From assembly GCF_000428585.1 (NCBI RefSeq), contig NZ_AUAF01000037.1, positions 1 through 36,498 of the forward strand: DNA of 36,498 nt. The letters are read 5' to 3'. The notes under the pieces were generated by a model, which worked only from the letters and a program-made list of their open reading frames with translations, was not told the origin of the DNA and ran no database searches. Both the position numbers and the translations under genes were made by a program. Position 1 is the stretch's first letter, and each line of letters opens with the position of its first letter. Of the stretch, positions 808 to 34,844 are shown piece after piece. The stretch comes from Zooshikella ganghwensis DSM 15267. GTDB lineage: Bacteria > Pseudomonadota > Gammaproteobacteria > Pseudomonadales > Zooshikellaceae.

Positions 808-3288
808 TCATGAATTATATGCTGGCTGTAATAGTTCACCAATGGCTTCCGCTAGTGCACTGTCTTTCGCCATCAACTGTTTGAGTTTTTCTCCAGGTAG
901 CCACAGCATATTCACTAAGCTCATTGCCTGGTAGTCGCCAGGGCTGACACCACTGAGTAAGGATAATGTCCCTACCAGTTCACCAGGGCCAAGGGTTTTT
1001 CTGAATTTTTTACCTAAGTGGTATTCATACGCTTCAATTGAGCCCTTGGCGATGATGCCTAAACCATAGAATGGTTTACCTTGATGGACAACCCACTCAC
1101 CACTGCTGTACAGTGTGTGTTCAATGATTTTGATGAGTTGTTGCTGGGTTTCCACGGCTAAGTTTTTACACCAGTTTAACTGACTGAGTAGCTCTTCTGG
1201 TGAAGTGGGCTTGGCAAAGGTAGCGACCCGCTGTAATCGAGCCATACGTTGCTCAATATTTTGTACTAAGCGTTTGGCTTCTGGCTTATCTAAAACCGCT
1301 TGATTGAGTAATTGTTTGACTACTGTTCGCTCTCGATTGAGTAAGGTTCGAATAGCTGAGTGGGTTTCGAGGGTGTGTACAAGGTCTGGAAAGGTATTAC
1401 GTAATTGCTCAATATATTCTTGTGTTTTTAGTTTATTTTGGGCAATGAGCTGCTTAACTGCTACGGCCTCCTCCTCATTGGGGGCTAATGAGGGTATGTA
1501 ACTTTCTAAGTGATCCTGAGCCTGAATAAAACCCCGTGCTATTTCATAACCAAGGGTAATTCTTGAAAAGCTCAGCGATACGGCAATTTTTTTGATGCCT
1601 CGTATATTGCGTAAGAGGTGTAATAAAGGGGGCGTTTGCCAATAGCGATAAAGCGTTTCTCGAGGTGCAATTTTCGGTTCACCATCAAGGGCATGTTCAA
1701 CGGCTTCCACCAGTTTATTTGTCGACTGCTTACCCAGTGTTCCCTTTTCAAATTGCAGCCAGTAATGCTGACGCTCAGTTTCTAACAGGCGGCGTCTAAA
1801 TGCGATCGTGAGTTCTTGTGAGGATACCTGGTTGGGTTCGTGGTCTTTGTCTTTAACCTCAATGGGTCTGAGTAATCCTGTATTATGCTTAACTTCATCC
1901 CAGTCAGCTCCTTTTAAAAAGCTATTGCCCATTAACTTTGGCAATAATTTTAATAGGTCTTCAGTAATTAACCGTTGGGCTTTGTCGACGGTGGCTTGCT
2001 TAGCAGCAGGCAGCTGGTTGAGATGTAAGCGGGCAAGTATCCAGCTCATGGTTGAGCCGTTAATGACAATACTTAACACCACAATGCCAGCACATAAAAA
2101 CAGGACTTGATCGCCAATTTCTTTTGGTAATAGATTTTCCTGTGCAACGATCAGTGCTAGTGCCAAAGATACAGCGCCGCGTAAGCCTCCCCAGGTTAGT
2201 ACGATGGCTTTTTCGCGGGTGATACCCCCACTAAAGCGTTTTAAAAGTGGGGTCAGGATAAATACGGAGAAGGTACGAATGATTTGAATTCCTATGTATA
2301 AAATACCCAGCGTAACCCATGACTCAGGGTTATCCCAATGAACTCGGCTGGCGATGAGAATACCTACCAGTAAAAAGATCAGGGTATTGGCCATATGGGC
2401 CATCATGCCCCAGAAATTATGTAAGAACTCCCCTACTTCAGGTGAAATGCGCGTTCGCCCTATTCCGGCAAACATTAAGGCAAGTGCTACAACCGCCACA
2501 ATGCCAGAGACATGTAGGCTCTCTGCGATGTAATACACCAAATAGGCGGTGGCAATTGATAAGGTTATCTCGATTAGCGGGTCATTAAAGACTTTACCGA
2601 TCCAGATCATCACTAAACCACCTGCGACTACGCCGACCAGAAGCCCTGCTGTGACCACCCAGGTAAAATTTGCTGTCAGGCTGACTAAGCTTATTTGCTG
2701 GCTAGCTTGACTGCTGATAACCCAGCCAAAAAACAGCGTAAATAAGACAATCGCTGTGCCATCATTTAATAGTGATTCTCCTTCCAGTAAGGTTTCCAGT
2801 CGCTTACGGGAACTTACTTCTTTCAAAAGCGCTACCACAGCAACAGGGTCTGTCGCACTAATAAGTGCCCCAAACATCAAACATAATGCCCAGCTCCAAT
2901 CCCAGGGGAACATCCATTTAGCCAGGCTAGCGGTAAGGGTGGTGGCAATAACTAAGCCTGGAACGGCTAACAGGGCAATTTGAGCGAATATACGACGAAA
3001 TAAGTGAACCTCTAAAGAAAAGGCACTTTCAAATACCAATGTGGGTAAAAATAAAAATAAGATGAGGTGGGGGTCAACGCCTGCAACCAGTGCCAGGGTT
3101 TTGTCCAAAAGAGGAGCATATTGCTCAGTAATACCAATACGCTCTAAATAGCCCAGGCATAGCCCAATGGTCAATAAACAAACGGTATACGGCAGTTGGA
3201 TACTTTTAACCAGGCTTCTGACACCCGCACCTATGATCAGCGCAAGACTGACAAATATTAAAATCAGAACACCAGCTTCACTATGCAT
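808..3288 (-). CDS. Na+/H+ antiporter, CPA1 family, with C-terminal cyclic-nucleotide-binding fold
   Basis: This 826-residue protein begins with about twelve hydrophobic helices (residues 1-420) typical of NhaP/SOS1-type CPA1 exchangers of the inner membrane, which swap Na+ or K+ for H+. Diagnostic motifs are SATDPVAVVALLKE and ESLLNDGTAIVLF, which supply the acidic transport residues and the conserved ND pair. A long cytosolic helical region (about 430-715) follows. A cNMP-binding-like beta barrel then occupies about 725-815, with G-rich loops including LGPGELVGTLSLLSG. In that domain the usual PRxAT arginine of the phosphate-binding cassette is missing (SPGDYQA instead), so canonical cAMP binding is doubtful. 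The ATG start is preceded by GGGACCAGAG. No partner gene is adjacent. Residue-level domain limits are estimates. Confidence 0.9.
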   Translation of the reverse strand: MHSEAGVLILIFVSLALIIGAGVRSLVKSIQLPYTVCLLTIGLCLGYLERIGITEQYAPLLDKTLALVAGVDPHLILFLFLPTLVFESAFSLEVHLFRRIFAQIALLAVPGLVIATTLTASLAKWMFPWDWSWALCLMFGALISATDPVAVVALLKEVSSRKRLETLLEGESLLNDGTAIVLFTLFFGWVISSQASQQISLVSLTANFTWVVTAGLLVGVVAGGLVMIWIGKVFNDPLIEITLSIATAYLVYYIAESLHVSGIVAVVALALMFAGIGRTRISPEVGEFLHNFWGMMAHMANTLIFLLVGILIASRVHWDNPESWVTLGILYIGIQIIRTFSVFILTPLLKRFSGGITREKAIVLTWGGLRGAVSLALALIVAQENLLPKEIGDQVLFLCAGIVVLSIVINGSTMSWILARLHLNQLPAAKQATVDKAQRLITEDLLKLLPKLMGNSFLKGADWDEVKHNTGLLRPIEVKDKDHEPNQVSSQELTIAFRRRLLETERQHYWLQFEKGTLGKQSTNKLVEAVEHALDGEPKIAPRETLYRYWQTPPLLHLLRNIRGIKKIAVSLSFSRITLGYEIARGFIQAQDHLESYIPSLAPNEEEAVAVKQLIAQNKLKTQEYIEQLRNTFPDLVHTLETHSAIRTLLNRERTVVKQLLNQAVLDKPEAKRLVQNIEQRMARLQRVATFAKPTSPEELLSQLNWCKNLAVETQQQLIKIIEHTLYSSGEWVVHQGKPFYGLGIIAKGSIEAYEYHLGKKFRKTLGPGELVGTLSLLSGVSPGDYQAMSLVNMLWLPGEKLKQLMAKDSALAEAIGELLQPAYNS

Positions 3289-21580: not shown

Positions 21581-21598
21581 ATGATCGAGGGTTTGCAC

Positions 21599-22054
21599 GT
21601 GGATATTAATGAGGAAGTTGACTTGCTAAGTCACGTGCCAATGTTTGCCAAGCTGGATAAGAACAAGCTCAGGCTATTGGCATTCACCAGTGAGGCATTG
21701 TGCTATAGGGATAAGGAAATTATTTTTCACCAAAGTGAGTCGCCTGATGGTGCTTATGTCGTCATGTCAGGTGAAGTGGAAGTAGTTTCAAATACAAGCG
21801 CAGGAGAAGTGGTTAATGCGGTCCGCGGTAAAAATGCATTGATTGGTGAAATGGCGGTGATTACTAATCAGCCCCGTTCAGCAACAATTCGTGCAAAGGG
21901 ACCTGTGCAAATGCTGAAAATAAGCTCCGATCTGTTTTTAAAACTGTTGACTGAGAACCCTGATGTGGCACTGGATGTCATGCGTCAACTGAGTCGTAAA
22001 ATTGCTGAAGCTCAGCATCAATATGAAGTCCTACAGGTACAGCTACTACAATAG
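21599..22054 (+). CDS. Stand-alone cyclic-nucleotide-binding domain protein
   Basis: The predicted protein (about 151 residues) is almost entirely one cNMP-binding domain. LLSHVPMFAKLDKNKLRLLAF begins it, and DGAYVVMSGEVEVV and a phosphate-binding cassette follow. The cassette reads LIGEMAVITNQPRSATIRA and keeps both the Glu and the Arg that hold cyclic-nucleotide ribose and phosphate, so it probably binds cAMP or cGMP. There is no DNA-binding helix-turn-helix; a short amphipathic helix ends it. The frame opens at ATG 21581, but the GTG at 21599 is preceded by GAGGG at good spacing. It lies 29 bases before the HD-like hydrolase gene and near two cyclase genes, suggesting a cyclic-nucleotide effector role. 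Confidence 0.8.
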   Translation: MDINEEVDLLSHVPMFAKLDKNKLRLLAFTSEALCYRDKEIIFHQSESPDGAYVVMSGEVEVVSNTSAGEVVNAVRGKNALIGEMAVITNQPRSATIRAKGPVQMLKISSDLFLKLLTENPDVALDVMRQLSRKIAEAQHQYEVLQVQLLQ

Positions 22055-22083
22055 TAATGTGGGCTATTCTTGAGGGAGTGTGC

Positions 22084-22734
22084 ATGAATCGAGAGCGGTT
22101 TGTTGATTTATGGCGCCGGGTGGTTGATTCCGATTATGAGGAAGCTGAGGCGATTTTTAATCGACTCTATTCTTATTATGACTCTATTGAACGGCACTAC
22201 CACTCCGCAGAGCATATCACTTTTTGCTTAGCGCAATTTGATCAGGTCAAAGCTGAGCTGGATGATCCCGATGCGGTAGAGCTTGCATTATGGTTTCATG
22301 ACGTGATTTATGAGTGTGGTGCGCAGGATAATGAGCTGCAAAGCTCTGAGTATTTTAGTGAGTGTAGCTGTAAGCGTTTGAGTGAGCTTTATAATGGTAA
22401 AGTCCGTCAGCTGATTATGGATACTACCCATAAGGCTCCTCCCAAAACCCATGATGGTCGTTTTATTGTGGATATTGATTTATCCAGTATTGCCCTGCCC
22501 TGGCCAGAGTTTTTGCGTGATACCATGAATGTTCGTGCAGAGAGCCCTCTCTGTGATAACGAGTACTATCAGCGCCAAATTGCCTTTTTCACGGCTTTAT
22601 TAAAAAGGCCACGGTTTTTTTATACGGATTATTTTGAAAAATGCTATGGCAAACAGGCTAAGCAAAATCTTGAACGTTTTATTCTCGAAGTAAAGCAAGG
22701 CCGGCTGAGCTCTCAAGAGCAAGCAGCACCTTAA
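22084..22734 (+). CDS. HD-superfamily-like metal-dependent phosphohydrolase
   Basis: A 216-residue soluble protein of the family often annotated as predicted metal-dependent HD phosphohydrolase. Putative metal ligands are in RHYHSAEHI (His38, His40, His44), then ALWFHDVIYE with the HD pair (His72, Asp73), followed by QDNELQSSEYF and a conserved DTTHKAP. The open frame reaches ATG 22057, but ATG 22084 follows GAGGGAG at five bases and is preferred. Substrate is unknown; a nucleotide is plausible from the superfamily and from the neighbouring cNMP-binding and cyclase genes, but that is inference. It is probably co-transcribed with the cNMP-binding gene. Confidence 0.78.
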   Translation: MNRERFVDLWRRVVDSDYEEAEAIFNRLYSYYDSIERHYHSAEHITFCLAQFDQVKAELDDPDAVELALWFHDVIYECGAQDNELQSSEYFSECSCKRLSELYNGKVRQLIMDTTHKAPPKTHDGRFIVDIDLSSIALPWPEFLRDTMNVRAESPLCDNEYYQRQIAFFTALLKRPRFFYTDYFEKCYGKQAKQNLERFILEVKQGRLSSQEQAAP

Positions 22735-22762: not shown

Positions 22763-24118
22763 TTATGGGGTTTGCTTCAGTCTAACAGTATAAATTTCAG
22801 TGCTATGTGTTAATCCGCGGGCTTTAATTTTATCTACTTGCTGATACACAAATGCTTCTTCACCAGCCGACAGCCTTGTTGACTCAGTGATGAGCAGTCT
22901 GGTGCCATAATCTTTGTTAAGGGCTTCAAGCCGGGCAGCAAGATTGACAGCTTCACCATGAACGGTATATGTCAGTCGGTCGCTAGTACCTATCAATCCA
23001 CCCACTACTCTCCCAGTATTAATACCTATGCGCGTTCGTAAGGTAATATCACCAATAGTGAGTGCCTCAGGAATGGCCAGGGCCGCTTGAATGGCATTAG
23101 CCGCGTGGGTCGCTGCAGAAATTGGAATATTGAATGAAGCTAAAATAGCATCCCCCTGGAACTGGTTAATAGTGCCACCATAGCGCTTTAAGGGTTCAGC
23201 AATAATACTGAAATAGTCATTCAACACTTGTATGAGCTGCTCAGGAGGTAAGTTTTCACTGAGGCTAGTGAATCCCTCAATATCTGTGAATAGTAGGGTT
23301 GCCTCTTTCACTTCTCCATTACCAGCCTGTAAACGTTCCTCACTGGTTGACAGGTTTTCTACGACAGTTTCTGGCACAAAACGAGATAAATCTTGCACCG
23401 TGCTGCTTTCAAAGACGGCTTCAATTAATAAGTGGCGACCACGCCCTATGGCTATTGCTAGAATCAAAGTGACGCAGACGATAGTGATAATTTTGTCTAG
23501 CTCTGCACCGACTAAAATAGTATTAGACGTCAGGTATTCCACATAATTACGCGTCATAAGGTTCTGGGTTGAATCGTGGTATAGCGCATAAAGCATGAGT
23601 AAAAGCCAGCCGGTTGCAGCACATAGCCCAGAAAACAGCACAAAACGTCGTTCGAAGCGCAAGGCTCGAATGGCAATAAAAATGAAAACATACAACATTG
23701 TGGGGGCTTTTAAATAAAAAGCAGCAGGTTGCATATACTGAATATGAAAGCTCCAAATTAGGCAGTAAAGCAGAGCGAAGTCCATAAAAATGGCGAGATA
23801 GGCATGCCAGTTATGGCTAGGATGACAATAAACTAATGCTAGGCGAAGGGTTGAAAAAATAAGGTAAAAGCCTAGCGCCCAAGGAACAGGTTCTGACTGA
23901 ATGAGCTCCCATAGTGTGCAGCAGTCACTCTGCCATTCTGTAAAGTTAAAAATACTATGTTGGCGGGTAAATGTTTTGGGAGAGCTGCTATAAAGCAGGA
24001 TAAACAGTAACACAATTACAAGTTCTACCCATGCAATCACTCGCTCACTTTCAGCCTGCTGTTGGCTAACAGCGTACAGAATGCGTTTAGGAAGTTGTCG
24101 AATCCGGGGTATATACAA
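22763..24118 (-). CDS. Membrane-anchored class III adenylate/guanylate cyclase
   Basis: The 451-residue protein has about six transmembrane helices (roughly 26-225), a short linker with DLSRFVPETVVENLS, and a class III cyclase domain (about 265-445). Metal-binding Asp residues are in TLLFTDIEGFTSL and FQGDAILASFN. Transition-state Asn and Arg are in TVHGEAVNLAARLEAL, and the RIGINTGRVVGGLIG loop is typical. All catalytic positions seem present, so cAMP synthesis from ATP is likely. The six-helix module may sense a membrane or envelope cue. It is divergent from a second cyclase gene beginning at 24216, with 97 bases between the starts. Confidence 0.92.
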   Translation of the reverse strand: MYIPRIRQLPKRILYAVSQQQAESERVIAWVELVIVLLFILLYSSSPKTFTRQHSIFNFTEWQSDCCTLWELIQSEPVPWALGFYLIFSTLRLALVYCHPSHNWHAYLAIFMDFALLYCLIWSFHIQYMQPAAFYLKAPTMLYVFIFIAIRALRFERRFVLFSGLCAATGWLLLMLYALYHDSTQNLMTRNYVEYLTSNTILVGAELDKIITIVCVTLILAIAIGRGRHLLIEAVFESSTVQDLSRFVPETVVENLSTSEERLQAGNGEVKEATLLFTDIEGFTSLSENLPPEQLIQVLNDYFSIIAEPLKRYGGTINQFQGDAILASFNIPISAATHAANAIQAALAIPEALTIGDITLRTRIGINTGRVVGGLIGTSDRLTYTVHGEAVNLAARLEALNKDYGTRLLITESTRLSAGEEAFVYQQVDKIKARGLTHSTEIYTVRLKQTP

Positions 24119-24215: not shown

Positions 24216-25553
24216 ATGAGGGGACTAAGACTTAATAGGGTTAAAGTAGAGACACGTCATTCAACAAAAAATGAGTCAACGCCTGTGGCATCCAATAAAC
24301 ATGAAATATGGCAAGAGGTTTTGTGGGGTGGGTTTGATGGCTGGAGTATTTCAGAAACAGTGAGCTGGCTGTTGACTTCAGGTCGTGCGGTTACTGACCC
24401 TGCCCTTTTCTTAAAGTGTTTAGCTGCCCATTTGCTAAGAGCTGGAGCAGATGTTGCGCGTATCCGCATTACGCTTAATACCATTGACCCAGAGATTACT
24501 GGGCGTGCTTATACTTGGTGGCGTGACCGGGATGAAATTGAAGTATTTGCCCCTGCACATGGCATTGATAGTACCCCTTCCTATCGAGGAAGCCCTATTG
24601 AAGAGGTGCGAGAACAAGGACGAATGGTACGCTATTCACTTATAAGTGACTTGCCTCGAAAGGCTCATTCTGTGCTCAAAGAACTCAAGGTACAGGGGAT
24701 TACAGACTACGTCGCTTTCCCATTACAGTTTTCCGATCAATCAGTGAATGCATTTATTATTGCCAGTGACCATCCCGAAGGCTTTTCTTCGGAGGATTTA
24801 AAAAAGTGGCGAGCCTTATTGCTGTACCTGCTGCCAGTACTCGAAGTCTTTTCTGCTCGCAGTATTATTCGGTCGCTATTAAATACCTATGTTGGGCCTA
24901 GAACAGGCCAGAAAATATTAAAAGGTCGGGTTAAGCGTGGTGATTCTGAACTTATCGAGTGTGCGCTGTGGTACAGCGATTTGCGCAATTTTACCGAGCT
25001 GACAGAGTCTCTATCCACAGAGCCTATGCTGCAGCTGGTCAATACCTATTTTGAAGTGGTAACGAATGCGGTCACTCGGCGTGGTGGTGAGGTTTTACGC
25101 TTTATTGGTGATGCCATGCTGATTGTCTTTACCACTGAAGCGCTGGGGTCGGTTACCAAGGCTTGTTCTGCCGTATTAAAGGCGGCAGTTGATGCGAACG
25201 ATCAGTTACAACAGCTGAATAAAGACTTAGTCGCCAAGGGATTACCTGTCTTGGAGTTTGGGGTGGGACTCCATATGGGGGAAGTGGTGTATGGCAATGT
25301 GGGTTCACTTTCACGTTTGGATTTTACTGTGATGGGGCCCGCCGTTAACCGGACAGCTCGACTTGAAGAACTGACAAAAACATTAGGTATTGATCTACTG
25401 TTGACCGCCGAATTTGCAGAGAAAGTAACAGAGCCCACTGTTTTTCTGGGTAGCTACAGTGTACGAGGCGTGGCAGAACCTTTACAAATTCATACGCTTC
25501 AGCAATTTCTTCAAGGCCAACAGTCTACCAATACGCCGGGTGTTGCATTATAG
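24216..25553 (+). CDS. Soluble class III adenylate cyclase with GAF-like N-terminus
   Basis: The 445-residue protein has no membrane segment. The N-terminal half (about 30-215) looks like a sensory GAF-type domain, with LLRAGADVARIRITLNTIDP and VAFPLQFSDQSVNAFIIASD. The linker is SARSIIRSLLNTYVGPRTGQ. The class III cyclase domain (about 235-430) includes ALWYSDLRNFTELTESLS (first metal Asp), RFIGDAMLIVF (second metal Asp), GVGLHMGEVVYGNVGS and TVMGPAVNRTARLEEL with the Asn and Arg. This layout matches bacterial cytosolic cyclases of the CyaC/adenylate cyclase 2 type. No good ribosome-binding site precedes ATG 24216, so the exact start is uncertain. It faces the glycosyltransferase operon 140 bases downstream. 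Confidence 0.9.
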   Translation: MRGLRLNRVKVETRHSTKNESTPVASNKHEIWQEVLWGGFDGWSISETVSWLLTSGRAVTDPALFLKCLAAHLLRAGADVARIRITLNTIDPEITGRAYTWWRDRDEIEVFAPAHGIDSTPSYRGSPIEEVREQGRMVRYSLISDLPRKAHSVLKELKVQGITDYVAFPLQFSDQSVNAFIIASDHPEGFSSEDLKKWRALLLYLLPVLEVFSARSIIRSLLNTYVGPRTGQKILKGRVKRGDSELIECALWYSDLRNFTELTESLSTEPMLQLVNTYFEVVTNAVTRRGGEVLRFIGDAMLIVFTTEALGSVTKACSAVLKAAVDANDQLQQLNKDLVAKGLPVLEFGVGLHMGEVVYGNVGSLSRLDFTVMGPAVNRTARLEELTKTLGIDLLLTAEFAEKVTEPTVFLGSYSVRGVAEPLQIHTLQQFLQGQQSTNTPGVAL

Positions 25554-25692: not shown

Positions 25693-26907
25693 ATGGCTCA
25701 GGTTAGACTGAACAATGCACGTCTGTTGATTTATAGTCATGATACATATGGTTTAGGGCATTTACGCCGCTGTAGAACGATTGCTCATGCGTTGGTGAAG
25801 CGGTTTAAAGGTCTGTCAGTTTTAATAGTTTCAGGCTCGCCCATTATTGGTCGCTTTGAGTTTAGAGCCAGGGTTGACTATGTACGAATCCCCGGCGTGA
25901 TTAAACTCTACAATGGTGAATACACATCACTTGGTTTGCATATTGATATACAGCAGACATTGGATATTCGTAAAGCGATCATTCAGCATACTGCTTTGAG
26001 CTTTCAACCTGATGTATTTCTGGTGGATAAGGAGCCACTGGGACTTAAAGGTGAGGTTGAACCAACACTACGTGTACTTCGAGAAACTGGTGTGAAAACG
26101 GTTCTAGGACTGCGCGATGTGATGGATGATCCTCAATGGCTAGCAGATGAGTGGCAGCAAAAAGGCATTCCTCCCAAACTGCTTGATTTGTATGATGATA
26201 TTTGGGTTTATGGCCCAGCATCAATGGGGAGTCCACTGACGGGTATTGAGTTTCCTGAGCCAGTTGACCCGCGCTTGTATTTTACCGGCTATCTGGCACG
26301 TCATGTGCCGAAAACAGCTGAACTTGATTTAAGCGCCCTTCCAGATCGTTACCTCTTAGTCACTCCAGGTGGTGGCGGTGATGGCGTTGAAATGGTGGAT
26401 TGGGTTTTGCGCGCCTATGAGTCATCCAGCAAGCTTCCTGCTGCAGCTGTCATTATTCTTGGCCCCTTTATGGGGGCGGCAGAGCGTGAGCAGTTTGAAC
26501 GGCGTGTGGTAAGCTTACCCCAGGTCATTATCCACACGTTTGATCGACATATTGAAGCGCTTATGGCGAATGCCTCCGCTGTCGTTGCAATGGGAGGTTA
26601 TAACACTTTTTGTGAAATTCTATCCCTGCGCAAGCCAGCGTTACTGGTACCACGAAAAAAACCCCGCCTGGAGCAGTTTATTCGTGCGACACAAGCTGAA
26701 GCGTTGGGGCTAGTCAAGGTACTGGATCTTGAAGAGGATGACTCTACTGAGTGCATGGTTCAGGCATTACAGCAACTGTCTTGTCAGCCTCCACTTAAAG
26801 AAAATCAAGTCAATGGGCTACTGACTGGACAGGAAAGGATAGCCAAGCGTTTCCTTACATTATTGGGTCAGCACCAAGTGGAGCAACTCAATAAGGTGGA
26901 GGGGTAA
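25693..26907 (+). CDS. MurG-like glycosyltransferase (COG4671 type), first of two
   Basis: This 404-residue protein has the two-Rossmann GT-B fold of the MurG/GT28 group. The N-terminus reads ARLLIYSHDTYGLGHLRRCR (glycine-rich acceptor loop) and is followed by DVFLVDKEPLGLKGEVEPTL. The C-terminal donor domain has LVTPGGGGDG (about 223-232), an IIHTFDRHIEALM segment and the donor-binding VVAMGGYNTFCEILSLRKPALLV in pieces. It is related to the predicted glycosyltransferases of COG4671. Sugar and acceptor are unknown. ATG follows GAGAGGACCC. Its TAA overlaps the next gene's ATG by one base (TAATG), indicating translational coupling. Confidence 0.85.
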   Translation: MAQVRLNNARLLIYSHDTYGLGHLRRCRTIAHALVKRFKGLSVLIVSGSPIIGRFEFRARVDYVRIPGVIKLYNGEYTSLGLHIDIQQTLDIRKAIIQHTALSFQPDVFLVDKEPLGLKGEVEPTLRVLRETGVKTVLGLRDVMDDPQWLADEWQQKGIPPKLLDLYDDIWVYGPASMGSPLTGIEFPEPVDPRLYFTGYLARHVPKTAELDLSALPDRYLLVTPGGGGDGVEMVDWVLRAYESSSKLPAAAVIILGPFMGAAEREQFERRVVSLPQVIIHTFDRHIEALMANASAVVAMGGYNTFCEILSLRKPALLVPRKKPRLEQFIRATQAEALGLVKVLDLEEDDSTECMVQALQQLSCQPPLKENQVNGLLTGQERIAKRFLTLLGQHQVEQLNKVEG

Positions 26908-28067
26908 TGCGTCACCATATTTTGATGTATTGCCAGCACCTGCTGGGAGTGGGTCACCTGTATCGTTTTGCTCGGCTAGCGGCAGCTTGTGTGCAGTCAG
27001 GGTTTAAGGTCACTGTTGTAGCCGGTGGCGAGTCAGTAGGCCAATCTTTGTTTGAAGGGTGTCACTGGGTTCAGCTACCGCCGATTAAAGTGCCAGATGC
27101 CTCATTCAGTGAGCTAGTAACGGCTGATGGACAGTCAGTTTCGGCAAATTACTGGCAACAACGACAACACGTATTGAGAGAGACGATTAAGCAAACATTG
27201 CCAGATGTTTTTTTGGTTGAAATGTATCCTTTTGGTCGTCGGGCATTTCGGCATGAGCTTACCCCTATTCTGGCAGAGCTTAAAGCCGGTGATGCATGCA
27301 AGGTTATGTGTTCGTTGCGAGACATCTTGGTAGACAAGTTTGTACGGGATCCTCAGCGTCAAGATTGGGTTGTTGATCAGTTACAACAGTATTTTGATGC
27401 AGTACTCGTACATGGTGATGAAAATTTCATTGCTTTACAGGAGACCTTTCCAGCCGCGGAACGGGTCTCATCGCAGCTATACTACACAGGCTATGTTGGA
27501 CCAGAACATGATAGCCAGGTGAGTGTGGCACCACAGCGACAGGTGGTTGTATCTGCTGGCAGTGGTGCTGTGGCTGAGCAGATGATGATGGACTTACTGG
27601 CGGCTCGTCCCTACTCATCAGTTGCCAGCTGGTCTTGGCGCTTTTTACTTGGGCCTCGGAGTAGCCATCGGCTCCAGCAAGCACTTGCTGAGGCGGATAA
27701 GGAAGCTGGACTTGGTGACATTCAGGTTGAAGGGCTGCGAGATGATTTTGTATCCCTACTCGCCGCGTCAGGCCTGTCAATCTCTCAGGCTGGCTATAAT
27801 ACCGTGATGGATGTTTTAGTCGCCCAGTGTCCCGCATTACTTTTACCCTTTTCCAATGCGGATGAAACGGAACAACTGCTTCGCGCTCAACGATTAGCAG
27901 CTGCTGGGTACTGTCACTATGCACAACCTGAACAGTTGTCTCCCCAGAGACTGGCCCAATGTATAGATAACGCCGTCAGTCTAAACCCCAAGTCACTTCC
28001 TTCTCCCATTAAGTTAGGTGGACAATGGCAAACAGTGAACTTTATCAAACGGTGGTTGAATGAGTAG
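26907..28067 (+). CDS. MurG-like glycosyltransferase (COG4671 type), second of two
   Basis: This 386-residue GT-B protein is a paralogue of the preceding gene. The N-terminal acceptor loop is ILMYCQHLLGVGHLYRFARL; then come DVFLVEMYPFGRRAFRHEL and MCSLRDILVDK, paralleling the VDKEPLG and LGLRDVMDD segments of the upstream protein. The donor-side motif is LSISQAGYNTVMDVLVAQCP, followed by LLLPFSNADETEQLLRAQRL. It overlaps the upstream stop by one base and the downstream deacetylase-like start by eight bases. The pair may add two sugars in sequence or work as a heterodimer; that is inference. Confidence 0.85.
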   Translation: MRHHILMYCQHLLGVGHLYRFARLAAACVQSGFKVTVVAGGESVGQSLFEGCHWVQLPPIKVPDASFSELVTADGQSVSANYWQQRQHVLRETIKQTLPDVFLVEMYPFGRRAFRHELTPILAELKAGDACKVMCSLRDILVDKFVRDPQRQDWVVDQLQQYFDAVLVHGDENFIALQETFPAAERVSSQLYYTGYVGPEHDSQVSVAPQRQVVVSAGSGAVAEQMMMDLLAARPYSSVASWSWRFLLGPRSSHRLQQALAEADKEAGLGDIQVEGLRDDFVSLLAASGLSISQAGYNTVMDVLVAQCPALLLPFSNADETEQLLRAQRLAAAGYCHYAQPEQLSPQRLAQCIDNAVSLNPKSLPSPIKLGGQWQTVNFIKRWLNE

Positions 28068-28854
28068 TTTGCTTGGTGAGGCACCCGCGTTGTGGCGGGC
28101 ATTAACCATTGAGCTGGAACACTGGCAGCAACAATTTGGAGGGGTTCCTCTTTGGTGGCGAGATGATGATGCACAAACCTACACGCCAGCACTTGACCGT
28201 TTACTTCAGATCAATCGCCAGCAGTACAGTAGCACACTGGCTTTGGCGGTTATCCCGGCAGGTGCAACCAACACGCTTGCCCGGCGTTTACAGTCAGAAG
28301 CTAACTGCTGGGTCTTACAGCATGGTTATCGTCATAAGAACTTTGCACCGTCTACCCGAAAGAAGTGTGAACTTGATGAGGATCGACCATTAGCGGTTAT
28401 TGCCAAGGAGCTGCAAAGTGGCGCTACATACTTGGCAGGTCTATTGGGTGACCAGTTTTTACCTGTTTTGGTACCACCTTGGAACCGAATGCGGAGTGAC
28501 TTGGTTGTTCACTTACCCGCTTGGGGATACTGGGGGTGGTCAGGGCTGGGACCGGCAAGTGCTGTACCAGGACTTAAAGTGGTTAATGTACATATCGATA
28601 TTATTAACTGGCGAACCCGCCAGTTTGCGGGGACAGGACAGGTTCTTGGGCAGTGGCTACGGGTATTACAACAGCAGCGCGCAGCGACAACCCCGGATGA
28701 GTTGCCAGCGCCTATCGGTTTAATGACCCATCACTTGGCTCATGATGATAAATGCTGGCTGTTTTTAAATACTTTTTTGCCATGGATTGAGGAACAAGTA
28801 ACCGTCCGTTGGCAGTCACCTATGGCGTTATTTTCACCCAATCGCCGCTTGTAA
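28060..28854 (+). CDS. Polysaccharide-deacetylase-like protein
   Basis: The 264-residue protein shows features of carbohydrate esterase 4/NodB-like enzymes. VPLWWRDDDAQTYTPAL carries an Asp-Asp pair (about 33-36), WVLQHGYRHKNFAP supplies an H-x-x-x-H metal pair, VPPWNRM supplies the conserved Pro-Trp-Asn-Arg stretch, and LMTHHLAHDD supplies the final His. There is no signal peptide, so it would act in the cytosol, on a lipid-linked or nucleotide sugar intermediate rather than on an exported polymer. Its ATG overlaps the end of the upstream glycosyltransferase gene by eight bases. Its stop codon is only 33 bases from the stop codon of a convergent operon. Confidence 0.78.
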   Translation: MSSLLGEAPALWRALTIELEHWQQQFGGVPLWWRDDDAQTYTPALDRLLQINRQQYSSTLALAVIPAGATNTLARRLQSEANCWVLQHGYRHKNFAPSTRKKCELDEDRPLAVIAKELQSGATYLAGLLGDQFLPVLVPPWNRMRSDLVVHLPAWGYWGWSGLGPASAVPGLKVVNVHIDIINWRTRQFAGTGQVLGQWLRVLQQQRAATTPDELPAPIGLMTHHLAHDDKCWLFLNTFLPWIEEQVTVRWQSPMALFSPNRRL

Positions 28855-28887: not shown

Positions 28888-29496
28888 TCAGACCTCTGGT
28901 GGCGGCTGAGTAAGCGGTATGTTCAGTGACTTCAAGTGCCAGCCTTGGGCAGGGCTCCAGGTAAAGCCATGCACACGTTGCCAATTTAGCCGTGTTGGAT
29001 ATTTGTCCAACATGAGCCAACCTGTAGCGGCCGCGAGCAAGGGACGAATGACGCCTTTATGGGTCACTATGACTTTTGGAGAATGCGTTAATTGCTGAGT
29101 GTTTTCCTGGGCTGCCCATTGTGTAATTCTCTGTAGTACTTGATAGGGACTTTCGCCCTGAGCAGGGTGTAAATGAATGCCTCGTTGCTCTTGGTATATC
29201 AGTTCCTCTGGATGTTGTTGTCGTAGGTTAGCTAAGGTCTGCCCTTCCCAACATCCCCAGTCCATTTCCTGCCAGGGTTCTAGTGTTTGATAGTTCATAC
29301 CGAGTGCTTGGACCGTTTGCTGGGCCCGCATCAGTGGACTGCTATACCAGTCAAATTGCTTCCAGGTGGGGGCCAGCTGCAGGTGTTGTAGCCGTGATAC
29401 TTCTTCTGGTAGTAGAACGGTATCTTGTCGGCCTTGAATCCTGCGCTGTAGATTCCACTGTGTGGTACCGTGGCGTAAACAATAAATTGTGAGCAT
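28888..29496 (-). CDS. Histidine phosphatase family protein
   Basis: A 202-residue member of the branch 1 histidine phosphatase (phosphoglycerate mutase-like) family. The catalytic motif is TIYCLRHGTTQWNLQRRIQG near the N-terminus (RHG). SSPLMRAQQTVQAL follows, the Glu-bearing MDWGCWEGQTLANL comes next, and the second catalytic His is in KVIVTHKGVIRPLLAA. A GTG start at 29529 is possible, but the ATG at 29496 shares its A with the TAA stop of the upstream gene (TAATG) and follows AGGAAA; I use it. It is the last gene of a three-gene glycosyltransferase operon. It may dephosphorylate a sugar-phosphate or lipid-linked intermediate, by context only. Confidence 0.87.
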   Translation of the reverse strand: MLTIYCLRHGTTQWNLQRRIQGRQDTVLLPEEVSRLQHLQLAPTWKQFDWYSSPLMRAQQTVQALGMNYQTLEPWQEMDWGCWEGQTLANLRQQHPEELIYQEQRGIHLHPAQGESPYQVLQRITQWAAQENTQQLTHSPKVIVTHKGVIRPLLAAATGWLMLDKYPTRLNWQRVHGFTWSPAQGWHLKSLNIPLTQPPPEV

Positions 29497-30668
29497 TAAT
29501 CTGCTTTTCCTATCAGAGGTGTTAACCACTGGTTCAATTGGTTTGCTGCCGCGAGCAGACTATGGTGTTGATGACTCCACTGTTGGGCATGATGACTTAA
29601 TTGCTGCCGCAGGTTAGGTTGGGTGAGTAATTCAAATAACCCTTGCTTGAAGGTATCCGGCTGTTGTTGAGGAATAATGAAGCCACCGCGCTTATTGGGT
29701 GAATCAGCAAAGAGGCTGCAAACACCAGGGGTTGCACCTGTGATGACAGGTAGGCCGTTCATTTGTGCCTCTAAAATAGCCATGCCTAAGGCTTCATTGA
29801 TCGCCGGCCAAGCCATCAGGTCACAGGCTCTAAGCCATGGTGTAATCTGCTCAGTCGTAAGTTTACCCAGCCAGTGCACTCGGTGGCTCAAGTCGCTAGC
29901 CTCCTTTTGAAGCTGAGCAAGAGCTTGGCCTTCACCAATAACAACCCACTGCCAGGGTAAATCGGTTAATGACTGAAGGCAGTGCAAGAGATAGCGATAT
30001 GACGCGAGCTTGTCACCTGGTCGGACCATGGCGACCGATAACAACCAAGGCTGGTGCTCAGGGATAGGGTATTGCTGGGCTAGTTGCTGGCGAAGGCTCG
30101 ATCTTGCGATATTGTCTTGTGGGGGGATAGCCATAAAGGGTGGCAGGTAGTGACTCACATCAACGGCATGGCAGTAAGGTTGAATACCCGGTAAGTCTTT
30201 CGGGTTAAGGCTAATAACCGCATCTGCTTGGTGAAGTGCTGCCAGTGTTGCTCTAAAGTTATAGCGCCAAGGTCCATAACGCTGTTTTTCAGCAACAGAG
30301 GCTTCAGCAATAACATAAGGAATGCTGAGGGCATGGCTGACACGAGGACCTAACCAGTCAGGGGCTTTATGGTAAAGGTGATAGGTAAACCAGCACTTTG
30401 GACGTTGAGCTTCGGGCAAGGGAAGATAGTGCCTGATAAGTTTGTTGGCTTGCCACTTGCCCAGTCGAGCCAGGCGCTTTTGGTGTTGCAGGTCACCTTC
30501 CCGGCTAAAGCTACGGAGCTGGCTGGCTAACTCGGGCATCCAGCCACAGAGCTGTAGACATTGCCAGAAGTGCTGAGCAATCTTTTGATCACCTGAAGGC
30601 GTTGGGTAGTTGGGTGCCTTGAGGGGAGCATAAAATGCAACAGGACGGTTTGCTGCTGACGAGGTCAT
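29496..30668 (-). CDS. GT4 family glycosyltransferase
   Basis: A 390-residue GT-B retaining glycosyltransferase. The N-terminal domain begins AFYAPLKAPNYPTPSGDQKI, with a basic acceptor-side region. The C-terminal donor domain has WLLSVAMVRPGDKLASYRYL, VVIGEGQALAQLQKE, VHWLGKLTTEQITPWLRACD and the E-x7-E element in NEALGMAILEAQMNGLPVIT. No membrane segment is evident. Its ATG overlaps the stop codon of the upstream glycosyltransferase (ATGA), and its stop overlaps the phosphatase start, so the three products are made from one coupled message. Sugar specificity is not deducible. Confidence 0.86.
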   Translation of the reverse strand: MTSSAANRPVAFYAPLKAPNYPTPSGDQKIAQHFWQCLQLCGWMPELASQLRSFSREGDLQHQKRLARLGKWQANKLIRHYLPLPEAQRPKCWFTYHLYHKAPDWLGPRVSHALSIPYVIAEASVAEKQRYGPWRYNFRATLAALHQADAVISLNPKDLPGIQPYCHAVDVSHYLPPFMAIPPQDNIARSSLRQQLAQQYPIPEHQPWLLSVAMVRPGDKLASYRYLLHCLQSLTDLPWQWVVIGEGQALAQLQKEASDLSHRVHWLGKLTTEQITPWLRACDLMAWPAINEALGMAILEAQMNGLPVITGATPGVCSLFADSPNKRGGFIIPQQQPDTFKQGLFELLTQPNLRQQLSHHAQQWSHQHHSLLAAANQLNQWLTPLIGKAD

Positions 30669-31888
30669 GACTTACAAGAACCTGCAAAGCATGAGGTAAG
30701 TGTTGCAATCCCCTGTTGCAGGCTGAAATGGCTTGTAACACGCTTATAGCCTGCTTTTGCCAGGGTTTGCCGCCATTCTGGCTGGGTGATTAGTTGCTGC
30801 AATGCTTGGCTTGTGGCATTGATATCTTCAGGTGGCACTAACAGCCCCGTTTGTTGATCAATGATAAGTTCTGGAATGCCAGAAATAGCGGTAGCAATGC
30901 ATGCTACGTGCTGACTTTGTGCTTCCATTAGCACGTTAGGTAAACCATCGCGATCGCCATCCTCAGTGATGCGACTGCCTAAGATAAAGATATCTGCTTG
31001 GCGGTATTGGTTGAGTACCCTTTGCTGTGACTGAGCGCCTAGCCAAGTGACTTTATCGGCTATACCTAACTGTTCTGCTAGATTTTGTAGCTTAGCTAAT
31101 TCTGGCCCCTGACCAATGTGGGTAAAGTGCCAAGATAATTCAGAAGGTAGCTTTGCCAGTGCTTCTAAAATTACATCATAGCCTTTTTTAGGTACGGCAC
31201 GACCTACTGACAGAATCTGGACCTGATCAGAGGGTGCTGTTTCACGAGGCTCGGCTACAATGGGAAAGCGGTTAAAGTCCAAGCCGTGATAAACCAGCAT
31301 CACTTTTTCGGGGTCTGGGGTGAGGCTCTGTAAATAGTGCTGGTTGCTTTCGGTGCAGGTTGTCAGCCAGGCTAAGTCTGCCAGTTTGTCAGCTAGGTCC
31401 CAGCGAGGTGTGGTCCAGATGTCTTTAGCATGCGCCGAAGCTGACCAGGGAATCCCGGTCAGGTGGCTGGTATAGCGTGTTACTGATCCTGGGGTGTGGA
31501 TAAAGTGGGCATACAGCTGTTGTGTATCTGGGGGTAGCTCTGTGGCAAGTACCCATGACTGTCCTAGTCGGCGGATTCGATTACGGGTTGGATCACGGCG
31601 AAAATCCTGCCACCAAAGGCGTAGTACTGACCAAAAGTGTGGCCGAAACAGTTGCGCCCAAAAACTACGAATGATGCGTCTCGGCTCGTGGTGCAAGTAC
31701 TCTGGAAGATAGACAACAGGTGCTTTTATTTCACGATGAATCGGGTGTACTGTGTGATCAGTGGGGTGGCGTAATGAAATCAGGGTAATGGCAAATCCTT
31801 GCTGCTCTAAAGCATGGATTTCTTGCGCAATAAATGTTTCTGATAAACGTGGATACCCTTTCAAAACCAATGCAATTGATTTTGTCAA
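30665..31888 (-). CDS. GT4 family glycosyltransferase (colanic-acid WcaL-like)
   Basis: This 407-residue protein starts KSIALVLKGYPRLSETFIAQ, a pattern typical of WcaL/AmsK-like exopolysaccharide glycosyltransferases. The donor domain has VQILSVGRAVPKKGYDVILE, HFTHIGQGPELAKLQ, VTWLGAQSQQRVLNQYRQAD and DGLPNVLMEAQSQHVACIAT, including the expected E-x7-E region. The protein is the first of the minus-strand operon of three coupled genes. It is divergent from the ABC-exporter-like gene starting near 32295, across about 400 bases of regulatory DNA. Confidence 0.87.
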   Translation of the reverse strand: MTKSIALVLKGYPRLSETFIAQEIHALEQQGFAITLISLRHPTDHTVHPIHREIKAPVVYLPEYLHHEPRRIIRSFWAQLFRPHFWSVLRLWWQDFRRDPTRNRIRRLGQSWVLATELPPDTQQLYAHFIHTPGSVTRYTSHLTGIPWSASAHAKDIWTTPRWDLADKLADLAWLTTCTESNQHYLQSLTPDPEKVMLVYHGLDFNRFPIVAEPRETAPSDQVQILSVGRAVPKKGYDVILEALAKLPSELSWHFTHIGQGPELAKLQNLAEQLGIADKVTWLGAQSQQRVLNQYRQADIFILGSRITEDGDRDGLPNVLMEAQSQHVACIATAISGIPELIIDQQTGLLVPPEDINATSQALQQLITQPEWRQTLAKAGYKRVTSHFSLQQGIATLTSCFAGSCKS

Positions 31889-32255: not shown

Positions 32256-32294
32256 CCATAACAAGCTCTCTTTTTTTCCTTGAGTGGGTATCGC

Positions 32295-34844
32295 ATGGAG
32301 CCATCAATTTATCGTTACATTCTCAAGCACACCCTAAAGGATCAAGTTCTCATATTGTTGTTAACGTTGGTTTCTTTTCCTATTGTTTATGCCTCATTGG
32401 AAGTCCCTAAACATATTATTAATAGTGCGATTAATGGCAAAGATATTCCTGATGCTGTCATGGGGTACCCAGTTGATCAACTTGGCTATTTGTTTTTTCT
32501 TAGTGGATTATTTTTGCTGCTGGTGGTTATCAATGGTGCCATTAAGTATGTACTGAACGTTTATCGTGGTGTTGTCGGTGAACGAATGTTACGGGACCTG
32601 CGCCTGGAACTCTTTAGTCGTATTTTGCGTTTTCCTATTCCTCATTTTAAAAAAGTCTCTCAGGGAGAAATCATTCCTATTGTGACAGCTGAGACTGAGC
32701 CTCTGGGTGGTTTTATTGGTGAAGCTTTTGCCCTCCCCGCCTTTCAGGGAGGATTATTGATAACCTATTTGTTCTTTATCTTTAATCAGGATGCGCTGTT
32801 AGGGGTGGCGGCTGTCGCCTTGTACCCTTTGCAGATGTGGGTGATTCCAAAACTACAAGCTAAAGTAAATCAACTGGGCAAGCAACGTGTACTGGCAGCA
32901 CGCCGCCTAGGTGATCGTATCGGTGACAGTATTGCGGGTATTCAGGAGATCCATGCGTTTGGGGCTGCGGGACGAGAACGGTCTAATGTACTGGAGCGTG
33001 TGCAACATATCTTTATGATTCGTTTGCGCATCTACAAACTGAAGTTTTTTATTAAATTCCTTAATAACTTCTTATCAAAAGTCACACCCTTTTTCTTTTA
33101 CTCCATTGGTGGTTACTACGTTATAAAAGGTGAGTTATCGCTAGGTGCGTTAATTGCTGTGCTTGCTGCCTATCAAGATCTGGATGCACCCTGGAAGGAG
33201 CTGCTGAAGTTTTATCAAACCAAAGAGGATGTGCGGATAAAATACGAACAAATTATTGAACAGTTTGACCCTGAAGGTTTGCTACCAGAAGCTTTGCAAT
33301 CAGGTAAAGCTGAATTACTTCCGGTTGAACAGCTTTCTTTGATGGCCCGTAATGTCAGCTATGCCGAGTACAGTAATGTCAATATTGTGAATAATCTTAG
33401 TGTTGAATTATTGCCTCAGCAGCATACCGCTATTGTTGGGCCTGAAGGCAGTGGTAAAACAGAGTTTGCTAAATTGTTATCTCGCTTGTTACAACCGAAA
33501 ACAGGACGTATTGAATTAGCGGGTCAAAATATTCAACTGCTTAATGAGCAGACATTAAGTAAGCATGTAGCGTATGTTGGTGCTCATGCACATTTTTTTG
33601 CAGGCACGATTAGGGAAAACCTTTATTATGGTGTTGATCCAGAGTCTGCCTCAGAGAATGCAAGTTGTTATTGTCAGCAGCAGGTTGACAAGGTTGATAG
33701 CGAGGTTATGGACCTGCTTGCAGAAGTTCAACTGCAGGATGATGTCTATCACTATGGTTTACAGAGCTATATTGATCCTGAACAAGACCCGGACTTAGCA
33801 GCCGCAGTGCTTGAGCTTCGTCATGCACTGCGTGCTTCACTGCACGCGGCGGAGATGGATGATTTAGTCGAGTTTTTCGATTGGGATAAATACAACGAGA
33901 ATTTATCTGTTGCGGAAAACCTCTTATTTGGTTCATCGCGCACCATTTCATTGGATTACAACAAGCTGGCTCGTCATCCATTGATTCACCAGTCTTTAAA
34001 AGAAGTTGATTTAATGGGTGAAGCACTCCGTGTAGGTTATGAACTGGCAAAAATCATGGTGGAATTGTTTGCTGATGTAGAACCTGGCAGTGACCTTTTT
34101 GAGCGTTTTAGTTTCATTAAGTCAGAGGAGTTACCGGAGTATAAACAGTTGCTCACAAAAACCAGTGTCGACTCGTTGCTGAAGTTGCCAGTAACACAAC
34201 AGGAGATGCTATTAGTCCTATTATTCCAGTTAGTGCCAGCCCGTCACCGTTTGGGGCTGCTGACGGAAAGCCGAAAAACCAAACTATTGCTGGTTCGTAA
34301 AAAATTATTTCTTGCCCTGCAAAAGGAAGCGCATGATTTACAGTTGTATGATGCTAATGAATATAATGCCGCATTAACCCTGCAAGAAAACATTTTATTT
34401 GGCAAAATCGTATATGGTCAGGCGCGTGCTCAAACAGAAATCAGTCAGCGCATTGATGAACTAGTGCAGGAGTATCAATTGCGTACGCAAATTATGTGTT
34501 ACGGATTGGATTTTTCGGTAGGGACTTCGGGTTCTCGTTTATCAGTAGCTACGCGACAGAAGTTGGCCATTGTGCGTGCATTGTTGAAAAAACCAAATTT
34601 TCTTATTGTTAATCAAGCCACCAGTGTGCTGGACCTCGGAGCTGAACGGCATATTATTCACTGTGTTTTGAAGCGAATGAAAGACCAAGGTGTATGCTGG
34701 ATATTGGGACGCATAGAACAAACATCTGCTTTCGATTATGTGCTGGTTATGGAAAAAGGTCATATCGTCGACCAAGGAGAATATGCCAGCTTGAAAGACA
34801 ATAGTCCGGCTTTTCAAGCATTATTGACTGGTAGTGCAGGTTAA
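32295..34844 (+). CDS. ABC-exporter-like protein with degenerate, insertion-bearing nucleotide-binding domain
   Basis: The 849-residue protein has an N-terminal ABC exporter transmembrane domain (about 10-310; six helices) and a single nucleotide-binding domain. An open TTG at 32280 exists, but the ATG at 32295 is preceded by GAGTGG and preferred. Walker A is intact (GPEGSGKT, about 382-389). A stretch of about 240 residues separates the Q-loop region from the signature region. The signature reads LSVAT instead of LSGGQ, Walker B reads FLIVNQATS where the family has LDEATS, and the H-loop His is Gly (WILGRIEQ). Three ENLxxG-type motifs (about 441, 541 and 698) suggest duplication within the insertion. 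ATP hydrolysis is doubtful. It may bind ATP without turnover, or act as a regulator or scaffold. Neighbours imply glycoconjugate export. Confidence 0.82.
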   Translation: MEPSIYRYILKHTLKDQVLILLLTLVSFPIVYASLEVPKHIINSAINGKDIPDAVMGYPVDQLGYLFFLSGLFLLLVVINGAIKYVLNVYRGVVGERMLRDLRLELFSRILRFPIPHFKKVSQGEIIPIVTAETEPLGGFIGEAFALPAFQGGLLITYLFFIFNQDALLGVAAVALYPLQMWVIPKLQAKVNQLGKQRVLAARRLGDRIGDSIAGIQEIHAFGAAGRERSNVLERVQHIFMIRLRIYKLKFFIKFLNNFLSKVTPFFFYSIGGYYVIKGELSLGALIAVLAAYQDLDAPWKELLKFYQTKEDVRIKYEQIIEQFDPEGLLPEALQSGKAELLPVEQLSLMARNVSYAEYSNVNIVNNLSVELLPQQHTAIVGPEGSGKTEFAKLLSRLLQPKTGRIELAGQNIQLLNEQTLSKHVAYVGAHAHFFAGTIRENLYYGVDPESASENASCYCQQQVDKVDSEVMDLLAEVQLQDDVYHYGLQSYIDPEQDPDLAAAVLELRHALRASLHAAEMDDLVEFFDWDKYNENLSVAENLLFGSSRTISLDYNKLARHPLIHQSLKEVDLMGEALRVGYELAKIMVELFADVEPGSDLFERFSFIKSEELPEYKQLLTKTSVDSLLKLPVTQQEMLLVLLFQLVPARHRLGLLTESRKTKLLLVRKKLFLALQKEAHDLQLYDANEYNAALTLQENILFGKIVYGQARAQTEISQRIDELVQEYQLRTQIMCYGLDFSVGTSGSRLSVATRQKLAIVRALLKKPNFLIVNQATSVLDLGAERHIIHCVLKRMKDQGVCWILGRIEQTSAFDYVLVMEKGHIVDQGEYASLKDNSPAFQALLTGSAG

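Follow-up and report, generated by a model that had tools for sequence, protein, structure and literature searches.

Exporters of the type IV ATP-binding cassette (ABC) class, such as MsbA, join a transmembrane domain (TMD) of the six-helix type, with its two intracellular loops (ICL1 and ICL2), to a nucleotide-binding domain (NBD) in which the Walker A, Q-loop, signature, Walker B and H-loop motifs follow one another in that order. According to the published reports on which we draw here and below, MsbA stripped of its NBD (MsbA-MD) is capable of transport driven by a pH gradient, moving ethidium, while the full-length protein is more efficient and an ATPase-impaired Walker A mutant is inactive in ATP-containing cells (PMC4979069). 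A D-loop mutant of TAP behaves as a nucleotide-gated facilitator (PMC7756269), and the proton-driven transporter SbmA has lost both its NBD and its coupling helices (PMC13316013). HetC of Nostoc demonstrates that an ABC exporter can depend on a ligand-binding domain of the cyclic-nucleotide-binding type (PMC10986499). Here we describe pABC, a gene for an apparently ATPase-dead ABC half-exporter, located at 32280-34844 on the plus strand of a 36,498-nucleotide contig (NZ_AUAF01000037.1, referred to in its entirety as the window) of Zooshikella ganghwensis DSM 15267. The protein belongs to a family in which a degenerate and enlarged NBD has been retained beneath a highly conserved TMD, and which is associated with cyclic nucleotide (cNMP)-binding domains.

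The 854-amino-acid (aa) reading frame matched Pfam ABC_membrane (E value of 3.8e-22) and ABC_tran (E value of 2.5e-21), values that put the assignment to the ABC proteins far beyond chance, and had the type IV exporter architecture of a PF00664 TMD fused to a PF00005 NBD. As Met6 is the first residue conserved among relatives, the true start is probably the ATG at 32295. The TMD comprises residues 6 to 330 (32295-33269, plus strand, as for all features of this gene) and is, from Pfam and the family alignment, the most conserved part of the family; E101 and E138 are listed among its conserved glutamates, of interest because proton coupling in SbmA/BacA is ascribed to a glutamate ladder. An earlier interpretation made from the letters of this DNA (the sequence-only reading) had described an ABC protein at 33440-34760; the ABC protein was confirmed, and those coordinates were found to delimit the NBD alone. 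The best NCBIfam score was that of TIGR02203 (MsbA) at 203.6, below the curated cutoff of 602, and a separate MsbA-like gene is present elsewhere in this genome. The next-best match to pABC within its own genome was just 25% identical (E value of 8.9e-19), indicative of a well-separated family. Zooshikella harenae encodes a protein that is 94% identical (L001).

Seven catalytic positions were scored, namely, the Walker A Lys, the Q-loop Gln, the two Gly residues of LSGGQ, the Walker B Asp, the catalytic Glu and the H-loop His. The window's protein retained one of the seven and hence lacks the residue set of a working ATPase site. Walker A (GPEGSGKT, 33438-33461) was intact; the Q-loop region (YVGAHAHFF, 33573-33599) had Ala in place of Gln; LSGGQ was lost from the signature region (RLSVATRQ, 34536-34559); in the Walker B/D-loop segment (FLIVNQATSVLD, 34599-34634), Asp was replaced by Asn and Glu by Gln, with the D-loop Asp kept; and in the H-loop region (ILGRIEQ, 34701-34721), His was replaced by Gly. 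The sequence-only reading had noted the intact Walker A, LSVAT for LSGGQ, VNQATS for LDEATS and the Gly at the H-loop, all of which were present in the letters; the Q-loop Gln is a further loss that it had not listed.

Degeneration was not restricted to this protein. Among 45 aligned family members, one broken copy of 530 aa (L026) was left out, and residues were counted in the 44 full-length rows, which are related rather than independent and in which the motif columns are uncertain for the most divergent members (e.g., L044 to L054). All 44 rows retained three or fewer of the seven catalytic residues, with exactly three in 8 rows and none in 11. The Walker A Lys was retained in 16 rows and lost in 28, the Q-loop Gln was retained in 3, the two Gly residues of LSGGQ in 3 (first) and 9 (second), the Walker B Asp in 13 (with Asn in 30), the catalytic Glu in 10 and the H-loop His in 2, while the D-loop Asp was retained in 38. 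Four additional rows, including those of Rhizobium johnstonii, Sinorhizobium meliloti and Azospirillum thermophilum, were likewise degenerate. The statement of the sequence-only reading that this protein should not hydrolyze ATP is, therefore, backed across the family by the absence of any row with more than three catalytic residues, and we infer from these losses that the family probably carries out no ATP turnover.

Homologues sharing the insertion described below were found in 9 of 293 genomes at the order level (E values up to 1e-60), 6 of 369 at the class level and 27 of 398 at the phylum level (E values up to 1e-90), each count including the window's own genome. Among 72,556 plasmid records, 339 matched pABC (E values up to 1e-40), mostly from Rhizobium, Sinorhizobium and Roseobacter-type genera; 155 of these matches spanned more than 80% of the query, and the remainder consisted in part of NBD-less relatives. 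A search with the TMD alone, which could have revealed canonical relatives, gave matches in 28 of 398 genomes (E values up to 1e-25), all being full-length family members or short open frames; the last full-length place in this list to be inspected (L175) was degenerate too. The search for homologues with the same insertion and substitutions, proposed earlier as a check, thus uncovered a Pseudomonadota family, represented here by 44 full-length rows, and no close homologue with canonical motifs was found among relatives in the order, class, phylum or TMD searches. On this sequence evidence, pABC is a member of a Pseudomonadota family and not a product of recent decay.

The distribution of constraint within the family was examined in 24 of 39 other genomes with a family member, each compared with the window's genome, using the best MsbA-like match as a control. 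For pABC, mean identities were 0.591 for the TMD, 0.393 for the NBD without the insertion and 0.378 for the insertion, and the TMD was more conserved than the NBD in 24/24 genomes. For the MsbA-like control in the same genomes, the corresponding means were 0.375 for the TMD and 0.585 for the NBD, the NBD being higher in 23/24, although both parts hardly differ in either protein for the genome of the same genus (G001) and the distant MsbA-like matches are perhaps not orthologues. The Lys, both Gly residues, Asp, Glu and His were intact in all 24 controls. Mean pairwise identity among the 44 rows was 0.515 for the TMD and 0.31 to 0.34 for the three NBD parts. Constraint in the pABC family is, therefore, inverted relative to that in MsbA-like exporters. 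In a comparison of the window with Z. harenae, the ratio of nonsynonymous to synonymous substitution (dN/dS) was 0.029 for the TMD and 0.023, 0.036 and 0.032 for the NBD parts, at a dS of 0.9 to 1.3, which is near saturation. Low values in all four regions, the NBD included, indicated that the dead NBD has been retained for some use.

The NBD is enlarged by an insertion at approximately residues 456 to 690 (33645-34349, borders approximate). In pABC, 311 residues separate the first ENL motif from the signature, compared with 49 in the MsbA-like exporter encoded by this genome, giving an insertion of ∼262 residues instead of the ∼240 estimated earlier; the two extra ENLxxG motifs noted at that time were present. 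Hence, an ordinary ENL motif (TIRENLYYG, 33606-33632) is followed by two extra copies (SVAENLLFG, 33906-33932, and TLQENILFG, 34377-34403), and the insertion holds repeats of the ENL...GL segment. Alignments of the three copies with hhalign gave probabilities of 98.4 for copies 2 and 3, 95.2 for copies 1 and 2 and 95.7 for copies 1 and 3. Probabilities were lower, at 7.1 and 48.3, in two of three comparisons involving the middle of the insertion; the third, at 98.3, only realigned a stretch common to both segments. On these values, much of the insertion consists of copies of the ordinary segment. The insertion was present in all 44 full-length rows, with R514, N547 and R673 invariant; no acidic residue within it reached 80% identity in these rows, and no PDB sequence matched it (E values up to 1). 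AlphaFold2 gave the insertion alone a mean pLDDT of 55, with values exceeding 70 along a helix near its center.

Two clades of TMD-only proteins (313 to 497 aa) were related to pABC. Of eight examined members of the first, termed the copper clade, four are annotated within copper resistance clusters on plasmids of Thalassospira, Azospirillum oryzae, Phaeobacter and Pseudosulfitobacter, three (L088 to L090) have similar surroundings as judged by eye without annotation, and one (L142) lies on a short contig; proteins in or beside copper clusters are located at L089 8031-9230, L100 7001-8200, L101 6875-8134, L102 6848-8341 and L103 6761-8065. The second, short clade (313 to 348 aa; six examined) has varied surroundings (L136 6640-7683, L138 6545-7483, L139 6951-7970, L140 6478-7473, L143 6530-7492 and L144 6427-7410). 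Ten of 11 further short places in the TMD search were retrieved, three of which (L135, L137 and L141) gave no family open reading frame (ORF) and were not counted. In a tree of 54 rows, from which eight near-identical or congeneric rows had been removed, the two groups were each recovered as a single clade, with bootstrap support of 98% and 96%; with long branches and a midpoint root, the copper clade branched among the full-length clades at an unresolved fork, and the short clade lay outside them. Pfam analysis of eight NBD-less proteins gave PF00664 matches only (below its cutoff for L101) and no SbmA/BacA family. Two of the four annotated copper cluster proteins are named ATP-binding proteins despite having no NBD; the database name "ABC transporter ATP-binding protein" is frequent for pABC-type genes, even NBD-less ones, and is misleading.

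The intracellular loops, which carry the coupling helices, differed between these groups. ICL2 was 41 residues long in 44/44 NBD-bearing rows and 29 to 37 residues long in 14/14 NBD-less rows, and ICL1 was 22 residues long in 44/44 NBD-bearing rows and 17 or 18 residues long in 8/8 copper clade rows. As full-length loops accompany the dead NBDs, these NBDs are probably still docked on them, while in the NBD-less relatives the shortening of ICL2 probably precludes docking of an NBD in the conventional manner.

The genes surrounding pABC were tabulated for 42 full-length loci, with flanks of mostly ∼8 kb (L088 to L090 and L095 being left out). A cNMP-binding domain was fused to the C terminus of pABC in 9 loci, the first fusion noticed being that of A. 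thermophilum (residues 912 to 996, E value of 1.9e-16); a cNMP-binding gene was located within 400 bases in 22 loci and farther away within the stretch in 2. Extension of the flanks for seven of the remaining nine loci added four more, for a total of 37/42. Glycosyltransferase genes were found in 29 of the 42 loci, deacetylase-like genes in 21, histidine phosphatase genes in 19 and the ATPase of an Opp-type importer in 21.

In the window, a stand-alone cNMP-binding protein (21581-22054, plus strand; PF00027, E value of 3.3e-20) is encoded 10 kb upstream of pABC and contains GEMAVITNQPRSAT, which, read by eye against the consensus, we take to be the phosphate-binding cassette. A pattern for this cassette matched 4 of 29 cNMP-binding rows, one of them in a misplaced position, the pattern being poorly built. 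The adjoining gene (22057-22734, plus strand), which is next to the cNMP-binding gene here and in L176, L177, L178 and L180, encodes a 225-aa protein with no Pfam match that presumably resembles HD hydrolases, as judged by eye, and is possibly a phosphodiesterase of the same circuit. Two proteins with class III adenylate/guanylate cyclase domains (PF00211) are encoded between the cNMP-binding gene and pABC, at 22763-24118 on the minus strand (E value of 1.8e-23) and 24216-25553 on the plus strand (E value of 1.1e-12). These are followed by two glycosyltransferases with GT28-like C-terminal domains (25693-26907 and 26907-28067, both plus strand), a weak homologue of an Azospirillum protein annotated as a polysaccharide deacetylase (28060-28854, plus strand; no Pfam match of its own), a histidine phosphatase superfamily protein (28888-29529, minus strand) and two family 4 glycosyltransferases (29496-30668 and 30665-31888, both minus strand). 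A second cNMP-binding protein, an Na+/H+ exchanger (PF00999) with a C-terminal PF00027 domain, is encoded at 808-3288 on the minus strand, at a distance of 18 kb from the stand-alone protein. Many relatives have, near pABC, an importer of the Opp/Yej type (tandem-NBD ATPase, substrate-binding protein of family 5 and two permeases), e.g., at L096 4144-10114; it was not found in the window. Of 20 ORFs scoring above 400 for the Opp-type ATPase, a loose pattern detected two Walker A motifs, two DE motifs and one or more SGG-type signatures in 17, the other three being cut by the end of a stretch; as a strict two-signature pattern was passed by only four, no conclusion is drawn from these counts.

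The S. meliloti orthologue lies at 841.7 to 844.4 kb of pSymB in the record of strain 1021, flanked by an importer and glycosyltransferase gene run and a Crp/Fnr-type cNMP-binding gene. In this record (L104 15944-18710), the pABC gene is present as two overlapping frames, while a single frame occurs in another strain (L099); the two frames may be due to a sequencing error or a strain difference. An uncharacterized surface polysaccharide that protects from phazolicin requires nine genes of the interval from smb21252 to smb21271, and smb21265 is named a "glycosyltransferase family protein" (PMC10128002), the name also borne by the corresponding gene of R. johnstonii, RL_RS30010. If smb21265 is the glycosyltransferase of the pABC cluster, then pABC lies inside this interval in either tag direction; from gene order, the orthologue is, therefore, probably located within smb21252-smb21271. 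This surface polysaccharide (PPP) locus would resemble the other clusters in holding a pABC orthologue, glycosyltransferases, an Opp-type importer and a cNMP-binding protein, but the ABC protein and its motifs go unmentioned in the excerpts of PMC10128002 covered here. Seven of the nine genes are induced under predation (PMC10315480). In addition, pRL110056 is listed as an O-antigen enzyme needed for root colonization (PMC11103875); going by its number, our guess is that it belongs to a pABC-type cluster on pRL11. Identity of the orthologue with MsbA2 (SMb21191) of S. meliloti was considered on account of that protein's name and its location on pSymB and was ruled out by position alone, as the msbA2 operon lies at ∼938 kb (PMC3687685) and the orthologue is hence another gene.

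From this anatomy we infer that pABC may be a nonhydrolyzing exporter or flippase for an envelope glycan that is gated by cyclic nucleotide through its dead NBD, an interpretation to which we assign a probability of about 0.5. In this interpretation, a type IV exporter would no longer be an ATPase and its TMD would still move substrate without ATP hydrolysis, the likeliest substrate being an envelope glycan or a lipid-linked precursor made by the neighboring glycosyltransferases. Movement could be down a gradient, as in a gated facilitator, or be coupled to the proton gradient, as in NBD-less MsbA and SbmA. The enlarged NBD, docked on the intracellular loops, would now serve as a regulatory domain, through which a fused or separate cNMP-binding partner, its ligand supplied by the clustered class III cyclases, would open or close the transporter. 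Blocked transport is a further possible consequence of a dead NBD if it still traps ATP, as illustrated by the inactive Walker A mutant of MsbA (PMC4979069).

Several observations weigh against this interpretation. A cyclase was found in only 14 of the 42 loci, longer flanks adding two (L180 and L181), and no cNMP-binding domain was seen in five (L001 and L002, where the stretch ends, and L057, L063 and L092). No listed glycosyltransferase was present in 13 of the 42 loci, among them eight of the nine fused loci (the ninth has glycosyltransferases), and hence one substrate class cannot fit all members. The lineage of the window has an intact Walker A; the level of NBD conservation would allow another use, such as that of a scaffold; and ICL1 was not shortened in the short clade (22 residues in five rows and 27 in one). 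The placement of the S. meliloti orthologue in the polysaccharide locus is derived from gene order and not from annotation. AlphaFold2 modeling of the whole of pABC, with three alignment rows, gave a mean pLDDT of 34 and no usable model.

The alternative of most weight, although unlikely in our estimation, is that pABC is a scaffold or cNMP receptor that organizes glycosyltransferases with nothing passing through it, as the sequence-only reading had suggested in part. Its gene company in 29/42 loci, the cNMP-binding domains fused or clustered in 37/42 and the purifying selection on the dead NBD would all be accommodated, but this leaves unexplained why the TMD is the most conserved part in 24/24 genomes and why loop lengths are constant in 44/44 rows; moreover, eight of the nine fused loci have no listed glycosyltransferase, the NBD-less copies lie in copper clusters, and Pfam analysis of 25 of the 26 ORFs of at least 150 aa in the window gave no other candidate for a glycan exporter. 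The proposal that pABC is an ATP-binding switch, in which closure of the NBD dimer by ATP would gate the TMD without hydrolysis, fits the retention of the Walker A Lys in Zooshikella and its family-level relatives (L001 and L012 to L014). The residue is absent from order-level relatives with the same gene cluster (L015, L016 and L017), and the signature and H-loop that would touch ATP are lost in pABC itself. As the Lys is kept in just 16/44 rows, an ATP switch is no family trait; it is possible in the window's lineage, where we nevertheless regard it as quite improbable.

Lower still is our estimate for a heterodimer in which pABC is the degenerate half and a canonical half-exporter is encoded elsewhere. 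Nonhydrolyzing nucleotide sites are used for control in heterodimeric exporters with one degenerate site and in CFTR, as also in SUR, but at least one working or nucleotide-binding site is kept in these proteins, while a pABC homodimer would have both sites dead. Exporters that work as heterodimers frequently have a degenerate site (PMC7756269), and canonical MsbA-like exporters were present in 24/24 genomes checked. A scan of 46 loci detected only three other MsbA-type ORFs, two of which (in L096 and L097, a pair of related records) lay ∼12 kb from pABC and were separated from it by an unrelated operon; LSGGQ was present in that of L097 only, that of L079 being without it and that of L096 being cut by the end of the stretch. 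Hence, no partner with a canonical signature lay within 12 kb in these loci. In addition, the Walker A Lys, often gone in this family, is missing from 28/44 rows, and the shortened ICL2 of the NBD-less relatives would probably not allow an NBD to dock normally. Very little probability attaches to a new catalytic arrangement, raised in the sequence-only reading, in which the insertion supplies substitutes for the lost residues and ATP hydrolysis continues: the insertion is universal among the full-length rows and has three invariant residues, but none of its acidic residues is conserved at 80%, the Walker A Lys is gone in most rows, and copies 2 and 3 resemble an ordinary structural segment (hhalign probability of 98.4). 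Recent decay, for which one broken copy (L026/L095) and the two overlapping frames of the S. meliloti 1021 record could be cited, is refuted for the family by a dN/dS of 0.02 to 0.04 throughout and by long open frames with similar losses in 44 rows across Gamma- and other Pseudomonadota, and hardly merits consideration for pABC.

The interpretation of pABC as a cNMP-gated exporter can be set against the described systems. It differs from MsbA in the loss of catalytic residues, the insertion, the TIGR02203 score and the inverted conservation. MsbA-MD and LmrA-MD are likewise TMDs without a working NBD but are laboratory deletions, whereas the loss in pABC is natural and family-wide. The HetC domain is N-terminal and binds ppGpp, and HetC requires its ATPase (PMC10986499). 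A natural parallel is SbmA/BacA (SLiPT; ABC relatives YddA/BclA), in which an exporter TMD has been freed of its NBD with loss of the coupling helices (PMC13316013), so that such a loss was known before. The NBD is absent from the 14 NBD-less relatives, whose loops are shortened too, but not from pABC, which, together with the 43 other NBD-bearing rows, has loops of full length (22 and 41 residues); furthermore, pABC and the NBD-less TMDs match PF00664 and not the SbmA/BacA Pfam family, and pABC has a dead NBD, a cNMP-binding partner and a glycan cluster. The pABC family, therefore, looks like a case of NBD loss separate from SbmA/BacA, with intermediates still alive. More tentatively, at a little under even odds, an ABC exporter family may have been converted, independently of SbmA/BacA, from ATP pumps to gradient-driven or gated transporters, with both an intermediate stage (a dead NBD as a cNMP-controlled gate on an envelope glycan exporter) and an end stage (proteins of metal resistance operons that have dispensed with the NBD and the second coupling loop) surviving. 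Searches of the open-license literature gave no account of the pABC family, of its dead NBD or of NBD-less members located in copper clusters; as far as these searches go, the family-wide retention of a dead NBD, the tie to cNMP, the inverted constraint and the NBD-less offshoots in copper operons are new.

In the literature covered, earlier evidence for an ABC TMD acting as a secondary transporter consisted of artificial truncations of LmrA and MsbA and of one natural group, SbmA/BacA. In the pABC family, several stages of that change are represented by natural and widespread proteins, some of them in tractable organisms (S. meliloti, Rhizobium and Phaeobacter) and beside a polysaccharide locus with probable known phenotypes. 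Furthermore, there is a suggestion of a bacterial transporter with the ABC fold that would be under cyclic nucleotide control in the manner of a gated channel.

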